Part shown: piece by piece, positions 23,150 to 31,357 of the stretch
Position numbering within the stretch: position 1 is the first letter of the stretch
Layout of the letters: every line of letters starts with the position of its first letter
From: Gammaproteobacteria bacterium
GTDB lineage: Bacteria; Pseudomonadota; Gammaproteobacteria; Ga0077554; Ga007554
NCBI GenBank assembly: GCA_023266055.1
Contig: JAHFRW010000019.1
Coordinates: 1-45,409, forward strand
Direction: 5' to 3'
DNA: 45,409 nucleotides
Translations under genes and position numbers: made by a program
The notes under the pieces: model-generated
What the model was told of the DNA's origin: nothing
Database searches by the model: none
What the model saw: only the letters and a program-made list of their open reading frames with translations

Positions 23150-23182
23150 CCTGTCGAACCACCATCCAGACCCTTCGACAGG
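23150..23182. repeat. Hairpin of the TTCGACAGG type at the tadA-proximal island edge
   Basis: CCTGTCGAA (23150-23158) and TTCGACAGG (23174-23182) form a nine-base-pair stem around a 15-nt loop. Sequences of this kind (TTCGACAGGCTCA) recur in many bacterial genomes as small dispersed repeats. It sits exactly between the guaA remnant and tadA, so it may mark the junction. Confidence 0.55.
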
Positions 23183-23186
23183 TCCC

Positions 23187-23413
23187 TGACACCTCGTTAA
23201 TGATGCGGTTTGAAATGGTGCCCAATACATCATAAGGCAAGTGCGACCAATGCGCGGTCATGAAATCAATTGTCTCCACGGCACGCAGCTCAATCACATA
23301 ATCATAACGACGCCCGTCACCCATCACACCCACAGATTTCACCGGTAAAAACACCGCAAACGCCTAGCTTACCTTGTCGTACAAATTATTTTTGCGCAGC
23401 TCTTCAACAAAGA
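23187..23413 (-). pseudogene. Duplicated 3' fragment of guaA
   Basis: About 227 bp align with guaA positions 29834-30060 at roughly 96 percent by hand count, in the same orientation. The copy encodes the segment around [18 protein letters not shown] to ISNRIINEV. It lacks the last 60 bp or so of guaA and diverges into unrelated sequence at both ends. A TAG replaces the CAG codon of VSQAF, so the frame is broken. It is a direct repeat of the real guaA tail, and everything between the two copies is foreign material. The copy probably records the insertion of the island. Confidence 0.9.
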
Positions 23414-23425
23414 ATCAATCAAAAA

Positions 23426-23496
23426 TCAATGGGGTCAGACTCGATTGAATTTGTATTAAATAGCCGCTGAAAATCAATCGAGTCTGACCCCATTGA
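23426..23496. repeat. 71-bp GGGGTCAGACTC hairpin, copy 1
   Basis: A perfect 23-bp inverted repeat (23426-23448 and 23474-23496, core TGGGGTCAGACTCGATTGA) flanks a 25-nt A/T-rich loop. A near-identical copy in the same orientation lies at 24775-24845, and a partial one at 29267-29282. It lies just after the fic stop codon and beside the guaA remnant. Similar sequences are, from memory, frequent around REP-associated (Y1) transposase genes, but none is present here. Confidence 0.8.
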
Positions 23497-23500
23497 CCCG

Positions 23501-24640
23501 TTAAGTGAGCACTCTCCCGGCCGGTTCGACAACAGTCAACTCATAACAGGTTATTCTGCCACCACCCGGTAGCGGCATGATGATTCCCTTGGCAACCAGA
23601 TCTGAAAGATCACGACTCGCTGTTCGATTGGGACACTTGGTGATCGCTTCATATTTTTTTGTCGTTATCCCGCCTTCAAAGCCCTTGCGACCCTCAGCAA
23701 ATACACGCGACACCATCCTGGCCTGCCGGTCATTCAGATGATCGCCGTAGGCTTCGTAGAAACGTGTCTTGGCCAATACAAAGTCCACTTCTTCCCTGGC
23801 AATTTCCTGTGCATTGATGACCCTATCGGCAAAGTAGTCAAGCCAAACATTCACATCCAGGCTTCCACGGCTCGCTTTCTCCAGATGCAGGTAATAGGAT
23901 TTCTTGTCTCCCTCTATTGCCGTGGCAAGACAAGCCGTGGTCGGATAGCCGAGAGATTGCGAAAGTGCATGGTCGGCAATCGCCCTGCCGACTCGCCCAT
24001 TACCATCATCGAAGGGATGAATTACCTCGAACCAAAGATGGGCAATCCCTGCTCGGGCAATCCCGTGTATCGGCTTGTCCCTATTCATGGGGCTGGTCTG
24101 GTTGTACCAATTGATGAACCTCGCCATTTCATCAGGCACCTGCGTCGCTGGTGGCGCTTCATAGTGAACTTTTTCCCGCCCGTAAGACCCGCTAATGATC
24201 TGCATTGGCGAAGGATCGTTCCGATATACACCTCGCAGAATAGACGTGTAGCGCTGCTCGGGAACTGCCATGGATTGCCAATTAGCCAGCAGATCATGTG
24301 TCAGGGATGTTCGCCAGTTCTTGCGAACGTCCACCAGCAGCGAAGCAGCGCCTGCCGCTTTCTGGTCTGAGTTGTCCGGTAGCGTATCCGATGTAATGAG
24401 AGAGAGTAGAGATGACCTGACCGATGCTCTATCCAGATTCTCGCCTTCAATGGCGCTGGTTTTGATGGCCTCGGAAAGCATCAAATCGATCGTGGCATCC
24501 TCTTGAGACGCCATTGGCAAAGCCTCAAAGCGGCCGGCCAGACGCTCTGAGTTTATACAAAATTCAAGATCCCGGCCTTCGAGCGCACACTTGTCATAGC
24601 GAAAATCTGGCCAGCCAGGTTGTTGCCATATCCATCTCAT
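23501..24640 (-). CDS. Class II Fic family protein (probable AMP transferase) with N-terminal DUF4172-like domain
   Basis: Fic proteins transfer AMP or similar groups to target proteins and often act in toxin or stress roles. This 379-residue protein has an N-terminal domain with the self-inhibition motif TSAIEG at residues 61-66 (pattern S/T-x-x-x-E-G/N, the inhibitory Glu being E65), which makes it a class II Fic. The catalytic motif HPFDDGNGRVGR spans residues 208-219, with the nucleophile-activating His208. The C-terminus (about 300-370) looks like a winged helix that could bind DNA. Start at the ATG at 24640: there is no ribosome binding site, and an operator-like repeat ends at the base before it. 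The gene lies between two direct copies of the same hairpin. There is no small antitoxin gene next to it, as expected when the inhibitory motif is in cis. Confidence 0.9.
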   Translation of the reverse strand: MRWIWQQPGWPDFRYDKCALEGRDLEFCINSERLAGRFEALPMASQEDATIDLMLSEAIKTSAIEGENLDRASVRSSLLSLITSDTLPDNSDQKAAGAASLLVDVRKNWRTSLTHDLLANWQSMAVPEQRYTSILRGVYRNDPSPMQIISGSYGREKVHYEAPPATQVPDEMARFINWYNQTSPMNRDKPIHGIARAGIAHLWFEVIHPFDDGNGRVGRAIADHALSQSLGYPTTACLATAIEGDKKSYYLHLEKASRGSLDVNVWLDYFADRVINAQEIAREEVDFVLAKTRFYEAYGDHLNDRQARMVSRVFAEGRKGFEGGITTKKYEAITKCPNRTASRDLSDLVAKGIIMPLPGGGRITCYELTVVEPAGRVLT

Positions 24641-24712: not shown

Positions 24713-25190
24713 AATCACCCATCCAAGAAGAGACAACCACCATGCGATTCAACAGGACAACAAATAAAGGTGAATCAATGGGCTCAGACTCGATTGAGTT
24801 TGTATTAAATAGCCGCTGAAAATCAATCGAGTCTGACCCCATTGACCCCATTGATCGAGTGACTTTCTCGTCAAGTGATCGCTGGAACCGTTCCTGATCA
24901 AGTGCCACGTCTCGCAAGCCCCCCAAGACCTGATCCCTGAATTCGGGACCCAGTTCGTTGAGCTTCTCGTAGTAACTGTCATCCTGCCCCAGCGAGAAGA
25001 ACTCCTCGCCAAGCTGATCAAACTGCTCTGGCACCTCCGGTCGCCGCTGCCCTTCCCTCATCCCGAACTGTCCGATCTTGACTCCACCAGCAATGAAGTC
25101 CTGGCCTTCCGCGTCATACACGACCAAGGAGTACATCGTGCTGTAGGTGAACCAGTCGTCCCAGTTGTCGGTTAGCAAAAATGCCATCAT
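24702..25190 (-). pseudogene. N-terminal stump of an unrecognised defence-island gene, cut at the hairpin repeat
   Basis: From the ATG at 25190 the frame reads MMAFLLTDNWDDWFTYST, then GGVKIGQFGM, FFSLGQDDSYYEKLNELG and ALDQERFQRSLDEKVTRS. After that it enters the hairpin repeat (about 24855) and continues in repeat-derived codons (MGSDSIDF...) to a stop at 24702. The first 110 residues look like a real protein start. From memory, this DNWDDW and FSLGQDDSYY module is found at the N-terminus of larger ATPases, and the family continues after VTRS, so most of the gene is missing. It lies downstream of the OLD/UvrD pair on the same strand with G+C-rich codon use like theirs. Function unknown. Confidence 0.6.
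24775..24845. repeat. 71-bp GGGGTCAGACTC hairpin, copy 2
   Basis: Inverted repeat 24775-24797 / 24823-24845 with one mismatch (GGGCTCAG in the left arm) and a loop almost identical to copy 1 at 23426-23496. It is in the same orientation, so fic with its operators lies between two direct copies. The truncated DNWDDW gene ends at the right edge of this copy, where a partial extra repeat unit (CCCCATTGA) follows. Confidence 0.8.
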
Positions 25191-25244
25191 TCGAGACCCT
25201 GCGGGGGCTCGTCCTCCATGGGGAAGTACAGTGAAAAACATCGG

Positions 25245-25469
25245 CTATGAACTCCCTTGAATTCGTTTTGCTCTTACTGGCGTCACCTCGCTGCACAACA
25301 CGCAAATAGCCACCACAGTTGTCTTTGTCGCCCCGACACCTTCAAGACCTACCGTTGCTTGCACCGGGTTATCTTCTTCGCTCAACTCCTGCAAGCGGTT
25401 CAAGCCCGCAAATGCAAATAGGTCAACTCGATATTGGCGAGGAGCAAATTTCCGAAGATTCGCAGTCAT
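25245..25469 (-). CDS. Small ORF coupled to the UvrD-like helicase gene; unrecognised
   Basis: A 74-residue frame (MTANLRKFAPRQYRVDLF...) whose ATG overlaps the stop codon of the helicase gene as ATGA, an arrangement typical of translationally coupled genes. It has no signal peptide, membrane segment or motif I recognise. It stops 54 bp before the start of the DNWDDW gene. It could be a genuine small accessory gene of the defence operon or the beginning of a larger, frameshifted gene. Confidence 0.4.
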   Translation of the reverse strand: MTANLRKFAPRQYRVDLFAFAGLNRLQELSEEDNPVQATVGLEGVGATKTTVVAICVLCSEVTPVRAKRIQGSS

Positions 25470-27241
25470 AGATCTCTTCTGGAAAATGGAACTTGACAGG
25501 CGATCATCAACGCAGCGCAGCGATCGGCAAAGGCGATAGGAACTGCCAACGCACTGAAATGCCGAGTCCTGGTTACGCCGACGTAGATCACGCGCTTAGC
25601 TTCGGCATCAGTTCTGTTCGCCCACGATTCAAAGAGAGCTTCGCTGCGATTCTCCGGCGCCCGGTTGGGCGGAATCACAACGCAGACGGCATCGTATTCG
25701 CGGCCCTTCGCATCGTGAATCTTGGCGCATGTCAGACCGAGTTCGACCGGTACTTGAAGGTGGTTCGACCATTGCCCATTGGTTGGCCGCCGAAAAAAAT
25801 TACGCACGGTCGCACCGGCCGGCAGCGGCAGGTTCAGCCGTTCCGTCTCCGCTTGCACACGGGCGATCCAGGCGAGCCGATCAACGTCGGCATTCCCGCA
25901 TACCTTGGGAAGGCTCATGAGGAAACTCAGCGCTCGTCTTCGATGTGCTCGCCGATCCATGCCAACGCGTTCGACAGTGCGCAACAGATGCTCGTTCTCC
26001 TGGCGCAACCTCATTACATCCAGCAATAACGTCTCCACCGCCAGAACTACAGCTTCTCTCGATCGCGCCGTTGCGGCAGGTGACCAGAACTCAGCCACTT
26101 TGCGAGCCAGCGACTCGATCTTCGAGCTTCCGTCCGAGTCGCTGGGTGCCACGCCAGCGGCACGCTGCGCGACCTTGCCCGAATGCGCCAGGACGATCAC
26201 GTCCGTTGAATCCAAGCCAAGTTCAGTAACCCGATCCAAGAAGGCCCGACCGATCGTCGCAGTCGGCCCTCGGCCACCGTATGCGAGAAGCAAAACTGGA
26301 TGTGCAACATTCGCGGTGTCGCCGACAGACTGATCCACCTGGCCCGCGCTTCTGAGCGTGGCGGCCAACCGGCAGACCGCAGGGCTGCTGCGAAAATTAC
26401 CTGTCAGCCCTCGATGCGATTCAACGGGGTATGTCTCCTTGAATACCTGAACACCAGCAGGATTGCCGTTGCGGAACCCATAGATCGCCTGGTCCGGGTC
26501 ACACACGAAAGTGACATGCACGTCGTGCTCTCTGAGCCACGAGAGGATCTGTAGATCGAGCGGATTGCAATCCTGGCCTTCGTCCACCATGACTTCGTGG
26601 AAACGTGCCGCCAGTGCACGACCGAGTGCCCCGCCATTCACGGGATCACGAATCAGCCGCAGCGTCTGAACGCGAGCATCGCCGACGCTCAGATAGCCAG
26701 CCTGCAGCAAGCCACGTCGCCGGTGTGCCGCAGCCTGCTGATACCGGGCTTGATGCTGGAGTACATGGTTTCGTAGTCCGGTGTGTCCGATCCTTCCCGG
26801 ATCAATGACATTGGTTTCTGGGTCGAACAGGTCCAGGCTCACCGGATCACCTCGGAAAACGAATTGTCCCAGCAACCGAATTTCGATGTCGAGACTGTCC
26901 CAACTGTCGAGGATGATTGGCCGTACCGTGCTTGTTGCCGCACAGCCTGGGAGCACCACGAAATGCCGGACAAAAGCATCGAGCGTTCCCATGAAGCTAG
27001 GATACTTCAAGAGTGGGTCGAGCCCCGCAGCCCGGCAGCGTTCCCGAAACTCATCGACGGCAGAGTTCGTGAAGGAGAGCACCGCGACACCGCGACGCGG
27101 CGGCAACGTGGCTGCGATCTTGGCCAAGCGCGCAATGATCGTACGGGTCTTTCCGGCGCCGGGGCACGCATGCACGAAGGTACCGCCGGCATGCGAGGCG
27201 AATGCCTCCTGCTCTGCCGTCAGGTCGTGAATGCCGATCAT
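25466..27241 (-). CDS. UvrD/Rep-type SF1A helicase, Gabija GajB-like
   Basis: A 591-residue helicase, the second gene of an OLD-nuclease/helicase pair. In Gabija anti-phage defence, GajB works with the OLD nuclease GajA to cut or degrade invading DNA and disturb nucleotide pools. SF1A motifs are complete and in order: Q-like LTAEQEAFA, Walker A CPGAGKTRT (Lys about residue 31), LSFTNSAVDEFRER, Walker B VMVDEGQDCNPLD, CDPDQAIYGFRNG, NFRSSPAVCR, IHDAKGREYDAV and IYVGVTRTRH. It starts with an ATGA overlap of the nuclease stop codon (27238-27241). The frame is open upstream to 27424, but that part lies in the nuclease gene. It is somewhat longer than the about 490 residues of the studied GajB. 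The gene looks intact. Confidence 0.87.
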   Translation of the reverse strand: MIGIHDLTAEQEAFASHAGGTFVHACPGAGKTRTIIARLAKIAATLPPRRGVAVLSFTNSAVDEFRERCRAAGLDPLLKYPSFMGTLDAFVRHFVVLPGCAATSTVRPIILDSWDSLDIEIRLLGQFVFRGDPVSLDLFDPETNVIDPGRIGHTGLRNHVLQHQARYQQAAAHRRRGLLQAGYLSVGDARVQTLRLIRDPVNGGALGRALAARFHEVMVDEGQDCNPLDLQILSWLREHDVHVTFVCDPDQAIYGFRNGNPAGVQVFKETYPVESHRGLTGNFRSSPAVCRLAATLRSAGQVDQSVGDTANVAHPVLLLAYGGRGPTATIGRAFLDRVTELGLDSTDVIVLAHSGKVAQRAAGVAPSDSDGSSKIESLARKVAEFWSPAATARSREAVVLAVETLLLDVMRLRQENEHLLRTVERVGMDRRAHRRRALSFLMSLPKVCGNADVDRLAWIARVQAETERLNLPLPAGATVRNFFRRPTNGQWSNHLQVPVELGLTCAKIHDAKGREYDAVCVVIPPNRAPENRSEALFESWANRTDAEAKRVIYVGVTRTRHFSALAVPIAFADRCAALMIACQVPFSRRDL

Positions 27242-28989
27242 GCCTGCGAAGCGCCACGAATCGCATCGGCAAGATAGGGCGGTACGACAAACGGTTCGCC
27301 CGCAGTAATGCGTGAAGCGATTGCCTGGGCCAGGTCGCCCTTGCGGGTCTTCTTCGCTTTGATCAGCTTGAGGAACGCGTCGGGACGATCCTGCGCTGCG
27401 ATACCCTCGATCCGTTCCATCCAATCGCGACGCGAGTTGCGATGCAACCGAAGGAACACGCTTTTCAAAAAGGCCTCATTGCCAGCCCCGAAAATCTCGT
27501 GTTCCAGAGTGTGCTGATTGGTCAGCACCGTCAGCGCCTGCGGCGCACCATGCGTCGCGGCGAGGTTTTCCAGATCGACCTTCCGATTCCCCAACACAGT
27601 CGGGTCAGTGTCCGTGATCACAATCAGTCGATCGGCGATACGTGCGTCGCCATGCGGTCGCAGCAGCACCTCGACGTAGGGTCGGAAGTCCACGCCCTCG
27701 ATCGGCACGATGACGGTTCCCTTGAACCGTAGCCACCCGTCGGCGTCGCCGGCGAGCACAAGCTTTTGCGCCAGCACCGGCAACAGCAGTGCTTCTGCGA
27801 TCCCTTCCACCAGGATGGCCCTGTTGCCGAACAACAGTGCGGAGCGGGTCACATCCAGATAGCGGCTGATCTTATCCAGCGTCTTCGGTTTGAGTCCAAG
27901 TTCGGCGATGGGCACGCTGACCGATTCCGACACTGCCACTCCGTTCTCTTCGCTACGGCGTGAGCGCATGACCACAAGGTGTACAGGGGAGACCCATGCC
28001 GTCAGGTTCGGCGAATGAGTCGTTACGACGATCTGGATGCGGCCTTCCGGCTTGCCAGCCTCAATGGCCCGATCAGCCGATTGGCGTGCCTGCGCCAGCA
28101 GGAATTCGAGCACCAGCACCTGCAACTGCGGGTGCAGATGCGCTTCCGGCTCTTCGACGAGAAAGATCGTGAGGTCGGCTTCCTTAGCTTTCGCCAGTTC
28201 GACGACGACCGTGGCCATGTAGAGCAGATTGGAGTAGCCCAAACCGGAGGCCCGGATGTCTTCGGGTAAGAGGCCGGTATCAGCCAGACGAAACCTCAAG
28301 TCGCGAGCAACATCGAGCAGCGTTTCGGCTCCGAAGTCCAAGGCCGCCGTTTGCGGCCGGACCCCATTGGTCAACATCCCCAAGGCAGTGCCGATCTCCG
28401 TGTTCATCGTTGTTAGGACATCAGGCCGGTCATCCGCACGTCTGACACCAGCGAGAAAATCCTGTTCTTGGTCCTTCGGCAGGAAATGACGCAACAGCGC
28501 CATTACCCGCGTGCCGCTGCCAGTGCCAAGCGCCTGGTGCGCATCGCGCAGAGGCGGCAAGTAGACATGCCGGATCAGGTCGGTGGAGCCGGTCTCCGGC
28601 TCATTGGTATCGAAGCGCCCGGCCCAGACGGTGGTCTTGCCGCGTGGTGCACGCTCGGACCGCGACTCATACCGATAACCGAAAACTGCTTCGTCCTTGG
28701 TGGGATCTGGGACAGCCGAGATCAGCAGTCCTTTCAGTGTATCGCCGAGTCCCCGGAAAGCGCCTTCTATCTGGAAGTTGGGAACGGTCGCGTGGCGCCG
28801 TACATCTTCATCCTCCGGATACCGCTCCCGGCGTCCGCTCAGCGGCAAGGTGAGCAACCGGATCGCGTCCACGACGTTGGACTTGCCGCCATTATTCTCA
28901 CCGACCAAGACGGTCAGATCGGGGCGGAGGCTGACGGTCACGTTGTCGCAAGACCGGAAACGCGAAATTATCAGCCTGCCCAGATGCAT
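27238..28989 (-). CDS. OLD-family ATP-dependent nuclease with TOPRIM domain, Gabija GajA-like
   Basis: A 583-residue class 2 OLD nuclease, close to the 578 residues of the studied GajA. The ABC-type ATPase head has Walker A GENNGGKS (30-37), the signature-like GLGYSNLLYM (about 249-258), Walker B FLVEEPEAHLHPQ (Glu279-280) and the switch His in VTTHSPNL (about 325). The C-terminal TOPRIM nuclease has the Glu in AILVEGIAEALLLP (E395), the Asp pair in VITDTDP (D460, D462) and the Lys-rich KKTRKGDLAQAIA. All catalytic positions are kept. A GGGAGA ribosome binding site precedes the ATG, 10 bp after the AbiEii remnant. Class 2 OLD genes are defined by an adjacent UvrD-like helicase, which is what follows. 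Promoter position is unclear because the upstream gene is truncated. Confidence 0.88.
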   Translation of the reverse strand: MHLGRLIISRFRSCDNVTVSLRPDLTVLVGENNGGKSNVVDAIRLLTLPLSGRRERYPEDEDVRRHATVPNFQIEGAFRGLGDTLKGLLISAVPDPTKDEAVFGYRYESRSERAPRGKTTVWAGRFDTNEPETGSTDLIRHVYLPPLRDAHQALGTGSGTRVMALLRHFLPKDQEQDFLAGVRRADDRPDVLTTMNTEIGTALGMLTNGVRPQTAALDFGAETLLDVARDLRFRLADTGLLPEDIRASGLGYSNLLYMATVVVELAKAKEADLTIFLVEEPEAHLHPQLQVLVLEFLLAQARQSADRAIEAGKPEGRIQIVVTTHSPNLTAWVSPVHLVVMRSRRSEENGVAVSESVSVPIAELGLKPKTLDKISRYLDVTRSALLFGNRAILVEGIAEALLLPVLAQKLVLAGDADGWLRFKGTVIVPIEGVDFRPYVEVLLRPHGDARIADRLIVITDTDPTVLGNRKVDLENLAATHGAPQALTVLTNQHTLEHEIFGAGNEAFLKSVFLRLHRNSRRDWMERIEGIAAQDRPDAFLKLIKAKKTRKGDLAQAIASRITAGEPFVVPPYLADAIRGASQA

Positions 28990-28999
28990 GGTGTCTCCC

Positions 29000-29266
29000 T
29001 TACCGACTCAAAAGGCCGGGATATTTCTTTACGCGCAGTTCTTCGAGCGCTTTGTCGGTCAGCTTCCACGCATCGCCCTTGATGCGCGCGATGAGTTCCT
29101 TCCAGACTCGCTCGAAAGCCTGTATCGCATCGTCATCGCTAAAACGGATACCCGCCGGCAACAACGGCGCGATGTCCTCAATCAGAGCGAGCTGGTCGAG
29201 CCCGTGACGCAGATCGAAAAGGTCGCGGTTTTTGCGCCGCTGCAGCAATGCGCGCAGCTTGGCACG
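29000..29266 (-). pseudogene. AbiEii/AbiGii toxin C-terminal remnant
   Basis: About 88 codons survive (from RAKLRALLQRRKNRDLFDL to a TAA 10 bp before the OLD gene). KLRALLQRRK.RDLFDL and DIAPLLPAGIRF are, from memory, features of the C-terminal part of AbiEii-type nucleotidyltransferase toxins, which are about 270-310 residues. The catalytic N-terminal domain is gone: the frame ends at a partial copy of the hairpin repeat (29267-29282). The spacing between the two motifs is also shorter than in the family, so an internal deletion is likely. There is no AbiEi antitoxin gene. The remnant cannot be active. Confidence 0.7.
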
Positions 29267-29282: not shown

Positions 29283-29574
29283 TGAGGTTTCCCCTCAAAT
29301 TCTCAGTGCTGGGTGCGGCTCCCGCCACGCGCGTAGCGTTTCTCCAAACTCCGCCGTAGTGAATTGGCCGAGAGCATTCTTGATCAGCAACAGGCCTACT
29401 CTAATACACGATATTTCCGGGCGTGAACGGCGATTGGTCAGTTGCAAATCATATGGTTGATGCTGGCTGATCGCTGTTCCTCCCCTCAGGCGCACTACAC
29501 ATTCGGCAAGGCTCGCGATCAGGGCCAGTATGCCTAACCGTGCCGTACCGCAGCTGCCGCTTTCGAAAGAGGCC
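29283..29574. other. Gene-poor stretch in the island
   Basis: About 290 bp between the AbiEii remnant and the large palindrome. A 66-codon open frame on the minus strand (29295-29495) has no recognisable motif and no ribosome binding site. It may be decayed mobile-element or defence-gene DNA. Confidence 0.35.
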
Positions 29575-29740
29575 TAGCAGCCTGTCGGACTTAGGTCGAA
29601 TCTACTGCAAAAGTGGGAGAACGGTCCATTTTTTCGCAAAAACTCATCAAATAGAATGAGCTATTCTCCTCATTTTTGCGAAAAACTGTCCTCGCTCTCC
29701 CACTTTTTCGCTACGACCCCCTAAGTCCGACAGGCTGCTA
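29575..29740. mobile_element. 166-bp MITE-like palindromic element
   Basis: A perfect 21-bp terminal inverted repeat (29575-29595 and 29720-29740, containing CAGCCTGTCGGACTTAGG) encloses an interior that is itself an imperfect inverted repeat (AAAAGTGGGAGA and TTTTTCGCAAAAA blocks on both sides). The whole unit can fold into one long hairpin. It codes for nothing and lies 30 bp beyond the guaA stop codon, where it may also end guaA transcription. A miniature inverted-repeat element mobilised in trans is the best reading. Confidence 0.75.
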
Positions 29741-29770
29741 GCCGGCGGTCATCGCTTTGCACTGCGAGCC

Positions 29771-31357
29771 CTACTCCCACTCAATCGTCGCAGGCGGCTT
29801 GCCGGAAATGTCGTACGTAATGCGTGAGATGCCCGGCACTTCATTAATGATGCGGTTTGAAATGGTGCCCAATACATCATAAGGCAAGTGCGACCAATGC
29901 GCGGTCATGAAATCAATGGTCTCCACGGCACGTAGCGCAATCACATAATCATAACGACGCCCGTCACCCATCACACCCACAGATTTTACAGGTAAAAACA
30001 CCGCAAACGCCTGGCTTACTTTGTCGTACAAATTATTTTTGCGCAGCTCTTCAATAAAAATCGCATCGGCACGACGCAATATATCAGCGTATTCTTTTTT
30101 TACTTCCCCCAGAATGCGCACACCCAGACCCGGCCCAGGGAAAGGATGGCGATACACCATGTCAGACGGCAGACCCAGCTCAACACCCAACTTGCGCACT
30201 TCATCTTTAAACAATTCACGCAGTGGCTCGATCAATTTGAGGCGCATGTTCGCCGGCAAGCCACCCACGTTATGATGGGTTTTGATCACATGTGCCTTGC
30301 CATTTTTGGAACCCGCGGATTCGATGACATCGGGATATATCGTGCCCTGCGCCAACCACTTTACATTGGTGAGTTTAGTGGCTTCTTCTTCGAAGATTTC
30401 AACAAATAGATTGCCGATGATTTTGCGTTTTTTTTCTGGATCAGCCACGCCGTCCAACGCATCCATAAAACGCTGCTGGGCATTCACCCGCAACACGCGC
30501 ACACCCATGTGCTGCGCGAAGGTCGCCATCACCTGATCGCCTTCATTGAGGCGCAGCAGGCCGTTGTCGACAAATACACAGGTGAGCTGTTTACCGATAG
30601 CCTTGTGTAGCAGCGCAGCCACCACAGAAGAGTCTACGCCGCCGGACAGCGCCAGCAACACATCATCACTGCCGACTTTCTCACGGAGCTGGCGAATGTT
30701 TTCGTCCATCACGTTGCTCATGGTCCACAGCGCCGCGCAACCACAAATGTCACGCACAAATCGCTGTAAAATGCGTGCGCCCTGACGGGTATGTGTTACT
30801 TCAGGGTGAAATTGTACGCCATAAAAACCCCGTGACTCATCCGCCATGCCCGCAACGGGTGCGGCATCGGTGCTGGCAATGACGTTAAAGCCTTCCGGTA
30901 GGCGTGCAACACGATCACCGTGACTCATCCACACATCAAGCATGCCGTAACCTTCAGGTGTCGTGTGGTCTTCGATGTCACGCAGTAATTGTGAGTGCCC
31001 GCGTGCGCGTACTTGCGCATAACCAAATTCACGGTGGGAGGAAGACTCAACGCCTCCCCCCAATTGCGCCGCCATGGTTTGCATGCCATAGCAGATTCCC
31101 AGCACTGGCACACCCAGATCAAAAACCACCTGCGGTGCGCGCGGCGTAGAGGCCAGGGTAACCGATTCCGGCCCACCCGACAGAATAATACCACGGGGAT
31201 TAAACGCACGAATGGCAGCCTCATCCATGTCGTGAGGATGCAGTTCACAATACACACCCACTTCACGCACACGGCGCGCGATCAGCTGGGTGTATTGGGA
31301 ACCAAAATCGAGAATCAGAAGGCGGTGTTCGTGAATATTGGTCAATGTATCGCTCAT
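29771..31357 (-). CDS. guaA: GMP synthase (glutamine-hydrolysing)
   Basis: GuaA converts XMP to GMP. From the ATG at 31357 ([21 protein letters not shown]) it is 528 residues. The glutamine amidotransferase half carries the nucleophile in VLGICYGMQ and the QFHPEVTHT pair. The ATP pyrophosphatase half has the P-loop [11 protein letters not shown]. The C-terminal dimerisation domain ends normally in [10 protein letters not shown]. The start at 31402 is rejected because it adds 15 non-family residues. guaB lies upstream on the same strand. A diverged copy of this gene's 3' part is found at 23187-23413, so the gene end was the place of island insertion; the functional gene is intact. Confidence 0.97.

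Follow-up and report, generated by a model that had tools for sequence, protein, structure and literature searches.

The stretch of DNA analysed here (the window, 45,409 nucleotides) carries a Gabija operon between remnants of other defence genes. All the frames and coordinates given by an earlier reading of the sequence alone were confirmed, and these frames lie on the minus strand throughout. The features are the following:

27238-28989, minus strand: gajA, 583 aa, intact; class 2 OLD-family nuclease with ABC ATPase and TOPRIM domains
25466-27241, minus strand: gajB, 591 aa, ATG at 27241, intact; UvrD/Rep-like SF1A helicase
27238-27241, minus strand: gajA/gajB start/stop overlap ATGA, common to the relatives examined
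25245-25469, minus strand: open frame of 74 codons between gajB and ptuA, most likely a non-genic spacer
25242-25265, minus strand: probable ribosome-binding region of ptuA, with AAGGGAG upstream of the ATG at 25241, read from the sequence
24858-25241, minus strand: ptuA (Septu/PDC-M01A) remnant, residues 1-128 only
24773-24848, no strand assigned: REP/MITE-like hairpin adjoining the end of the ptuA homology
29000-29248, minus strand: remnant of the C-terminal part of abiEii, internally deleted, immediately upstream of gajA

By comparison with the PADLOC models, GajA matched GajA PDLC00073 over residues 1-582 of 583 (906 bits), and GajB matched GajB PDLC00112 end to end (residues 1-591, 843 bits). 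The Pfam domains were AAA_15 and OLD-like_TOPRIM in GajA and UvrD-helicase in GajB. The ATPase and TOPRIM motifs of GajA, described as complete in the sequence-only reading, are indeed so. The Walker motifs are located at residues 30-37 (GENNGGKS) and 277-287 (LVEEPEAHLHP) and are invariant across 8 relatives, and the class 2 OLD TOPRIM site is formed by E395 (LVEG), D460 and D462 (TDTD), and K550 (KG), which align with the C-terminal regions of two class 2 OLD proteins of known structure (6njv and 6nk8). GajB, correctly taken for an SF1A helicase, contains the Walker A ACPGAGKT and the DExQD box VDEGQD.

Twelve loci with close GajB relatives (L001-L012) were compared. The gajA and gajB genes of the window are adjacent on the same strand, and the ATGA that they share is also found in L001-L008, L010, and L012. 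Considering that the models match end to end and that the pair is kept in relatives, this arrangement is far beyond chance, and the identification of a Gabija-type OLD nuclease/UvrD helicase pair overlapping by ATGA was borne out. In the aligned set, identity to the relatives was 87-93% for GajA and 73-87% for GajB. The dN/dS against L008, obtained by counting, was 0.07 for gajA and 0.14 for the last 201 codons of gajB. Both proteins are intact, with conserved motifs, and are under strong purifying selection. No further close GajB was found in 369 genomes of the class, and GajB had no match in viral contigs.

GajB is 591 residues long versus 494 in the solved GajB, a difference of about 100 residues to which the sequence-only reading had drawn attention. 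The difference in size is real, but the protein is not extra-long for its subfamily; its length is ordinary, given the 581 positions of the PADLOC GajB model that it matches best. The listed GajB models span 382-663 positions, and the crystallised 494-residue GajB is one of the short ones. The structure of GajB predicted with the alignment of 8 close relatives had a mean pLDDT of 40, too poor to use.

In Bacillus cereus, the active site of GajA consists of the glutamate corresponding to E395 (E379) and the corresponding DxD motif (PMC8136825, PMC10781630), and the replacements E379A, D511A, and K541A abolish cutting (PMC8136825). The studied Gabija nicks or cuts phage DNA, and nucleotides hold this activity back (PMC8136825); the B. 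cereus complex is described in PMC10822852 as made of four GajA and four GajB. By analogy to these studied members, GajA and GajB of the window would form a complex in which the TOPRIM domain of GajA would cut phage DNA, its ATPase domain could serve as nucleotide sensor, and the GajB helicase may regulate or activate the nuclease.

The 224 nt between gajB and the start of the next gene are taken up by the 74-codon frame. It shares an ATGA (25466-25469) with the gajB stop, at the coordinates first assigned to it, and had been interpreted, on condition that it is real, as the accessory gene of a Gabija variant. This ATGA arises because gajB ends with Leu (CTA) followed by TGA, as it does in both the window and L008. 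The gajB of L001-L003 ends in TTA-TGA, also giving ATGA, and is followed there by an unrelated 23-codon frame; in the other seven relatives the stop is TAA or TAG, with no ATGA. The overlap of gajB with the 74-codon frame is not beyond chance. Among the 11 relatives with downstream sequence, related DNA after gajB was seen in one, L008, which is the only close relative where the search for homologues beside other OLD/UvrD pairs found the ORF; unrelated DNA follows gajB in the 10 others. Neither Pfam, PADLOC, and NCBIfam nor plasmids, viral contigs, and a sample of 398 genomes of the phylum gave a match to the 74-residue protein.

The counterpart in L008 also has 74 codons and is 62% identical, without gaps. 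Between window and L008, the substitutions at the three codon positions were 13:18:19 in the frame versus 17:13:61 in the adjacent 201 gajB codons, and the dN/dS of the frame by counting was 0.77. In a codon model applied to this one homologous pair, in which ptuA is a remnant on both sides, the maximum likelihood omega was 1.16; omega = 1 was not rejected (2ΔlnL of 0.15), and values of 0.3 and 0.14 were both rejected (14.1 and 33.6). The last 76 gajB codons of the same pair were the positive control and gave an omega of 0.22, with omega = 1 rejected (13.2); since this control of similar length rejected neutrality, the test had power. The amino-acid identity was 46/74 versus 44.2 ± 2.8 in a neutral simulation (P = 0.33), and the frame stayed open in 23% of the simulation runs; the divergence between window and L008 is about 22% here. 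There was no clear coding signature between window and L008 in any frame of the spacer, on either strand. As judged from this comparison of sequences, the pattern of synonymous and nonsynonymous changes is neutral and shows a frame evolving without constraint at the protein level, which, together with its occurrence in one of 11 relatives, speaks against the accessory gene proposed. The spacer was also considered as a possible structured RNA, but this was rejected: the folding z-score was +0.76 (no stabler than the shuffles), and Rfam gave no match.

The ORF that follows runs from the ATG at 25241 to 24702 (179 codons), and homology was found for the first 128 codons only. It had been reported as a truncated unknown gene, with a DNWDDW module. 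It is truncated, but it can no longer be called unknown, since it is the N-terminus of PtuA according to PADLOC (PDC-M01A, 2.7e-37; PtuA, 5.9e-33) and to the match with L083 (Agrobacterium plasmid pB7.6), whose 515-residue PtuA/PDC-M01A is 61% identical over residues 1-128. In L083, the PtuA gene is followed by a PDC-M01B gene. In the window, the homology is lost before Walker A, leaving neither ATPase motifs nor a partner gene, and no frame for an HNH partner was seen between the remnant and the next gene, fic. The ptuA of L008 is broken even earlier. The PtuA N-terminus had no match in viral contigs. The ptuA homology of the window ends about 10 nt from the 76-nt hairpin repeat at 24773-24848 (27-nt arms and a 17-nt loop), of which a second copy, 97% identical, is located at 23424-23499. 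The fic gene lies between these two REP/MITE-like hairpins, and no further copy of their arm sequence, GGGGTCAGACTCGATTGA, was found in the assembly.

Taking all this into account, we consider it very probable that this locus holds a standard two-gene Gabija within a small defence island that has partly decayed, that the 74-codon frame is a non-coding spacer before a former ptuA, and that ptuA and abiEii are remnants. The frame would then be the stretch between gajB and ptuA, with the ribosome-binding site of ptuA at its end, and its apparent coupling would stem only from the CTA-TGA with which gajB finishes. The end of the frame (25242-25265) holds AAGGGAG shortly upstream of the ATG at 25241, differs little between window and L008, and is likely to include the ptuA ribosome-binding site, as read from these letters. 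It counts against a spacer that the stop of the frame and the ptuA start are 3 nt apart, a layout that looks operon-like, and that the frame has no stop codon in either of two genomes diverging here by about 22%, the probability of this under neutral drift being about 0.23. The ATGA shared with gajB and the 74 open codons kept in both window and L008 would also suit a real third gene in a variant Gabija, coupled to the translation of gajB and modulating GajAB; this we regard as extremely unlikely, in view of the missing protein-level constraint, the absence from 10 other close relatives, and the lack of any domain or match in the collections searched above. It is barely credible, too, that the ORF evolves fast as a third gene, formerly the link between Gabija and a Septu-type PtuA within a combined operon, and that it continues to modulate GajAB in this lineage.

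Considering that ptuA is a remnant in both the window and L008, constraint could have disappeared in each of them, and the frame could be a former gene of an ancestral gajAB-ORF-ptuA(-ptuB) operon that is decaying together with ptuA in the two known lineages. However, the nearest loci with an intact ptuA (L083 and L084) are unlike the spacer beyond the ptuA start, and no frame on either strand bears a clear coding signature, so that we find such a decaying gene very unlikely. The preferred reading, a spacer, illustrates that an open frame with a start/stop overlap can pass for an accessory gene coupled to its neighbour; a single homologous pair suffices to distinguish the two.

On the other side of the operon, the abiEii remnant (82 codons; PADLOC AbiEii, 1.3e-6) ends 10 nt before gajA. 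It aligns to the AbiEii of L001-L003, with about 37 internal residues missing, and AbiE is incomplete in the window, where this remnant stands without AbiEi. Among the relatives, L002 has AbiEi and a full AbiEii upstream of gajA, and other related loci have long AbiEii frames. Directly upstream of gajA, L005 (1846-4151) and L010 (1832-4137) have instead two unannotated genes that overlap each other and encode proteins of 420 and 348 aa, and L007 (up to 1707) shows at least the second of them; these loci belong to different genera. The pair of L005 had no match in Pfam, PADLOC, or NCBIfam. The 348-aa protein has a D...DAKNK stretch, could be a PD-(D/E)xK nuclease, and has relatives on a few plasmids. 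The two genes are possibly an undescribed defence pair.

Regarding the surroundings of the operon in the window, an intact DUF4172-Fic protein adjoins it at 23501-24640. A 232-nt stretch near the guaA 3' end (23180-23411) is repeated, with 94% identity, at 29827-30058, beyond the defence genes and beside tadA. The entry point of the island seems to be beside guaA. A perfect 22-nt inverted repeat (CTAGCAGCCTGTCGGACTTAGG) around 124 nt is located at 29574-29741, between guaA and the defence genes, and this unit resembles a small non-autonomous transposable element.

By comparison with known systems, the Gabija of Bacillus cereus VD045 (8sm3, 8tk0/8tk1, 8jqb, and 8u7i) likewise consists of an OLD ATPase-TOPRIM nuclease followed by a UvrD-like helicase, and the two genes and the motifs of both proteins are common to it and the window. 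The window system nevertheless belongs to a subfamily distant from the VD045 type, its GajB has 591 residues versus 494, and the solved structures are not of close relatives. With Septu/PDC-M01 (PtuA ATPase plus HNH partner, as in L083), the window has the first 128 PtuA residues in common, whereas the ATPase core and the HNH partner are missing. The Gabija loci of Thiobacillus, Hydrogenophilales, Trinickia, Pseudomonas, Xanthomonas, and others (L001-L011) present the same gajA/gajB ATGA overlap, in the loci named above, but the DNA after gajB differs from that of the window except in L008, and a fuller AbiEii immediately precedes gajA in L001-L003 and L012, where the window has a remnant. This suggests that variation around this Gabija subfamily resides mainly in the neighbouring defence genes and not in a built-in third subunit. 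The Gabija described here adds nothing new to the system, whose biology gains one more ordinary member.
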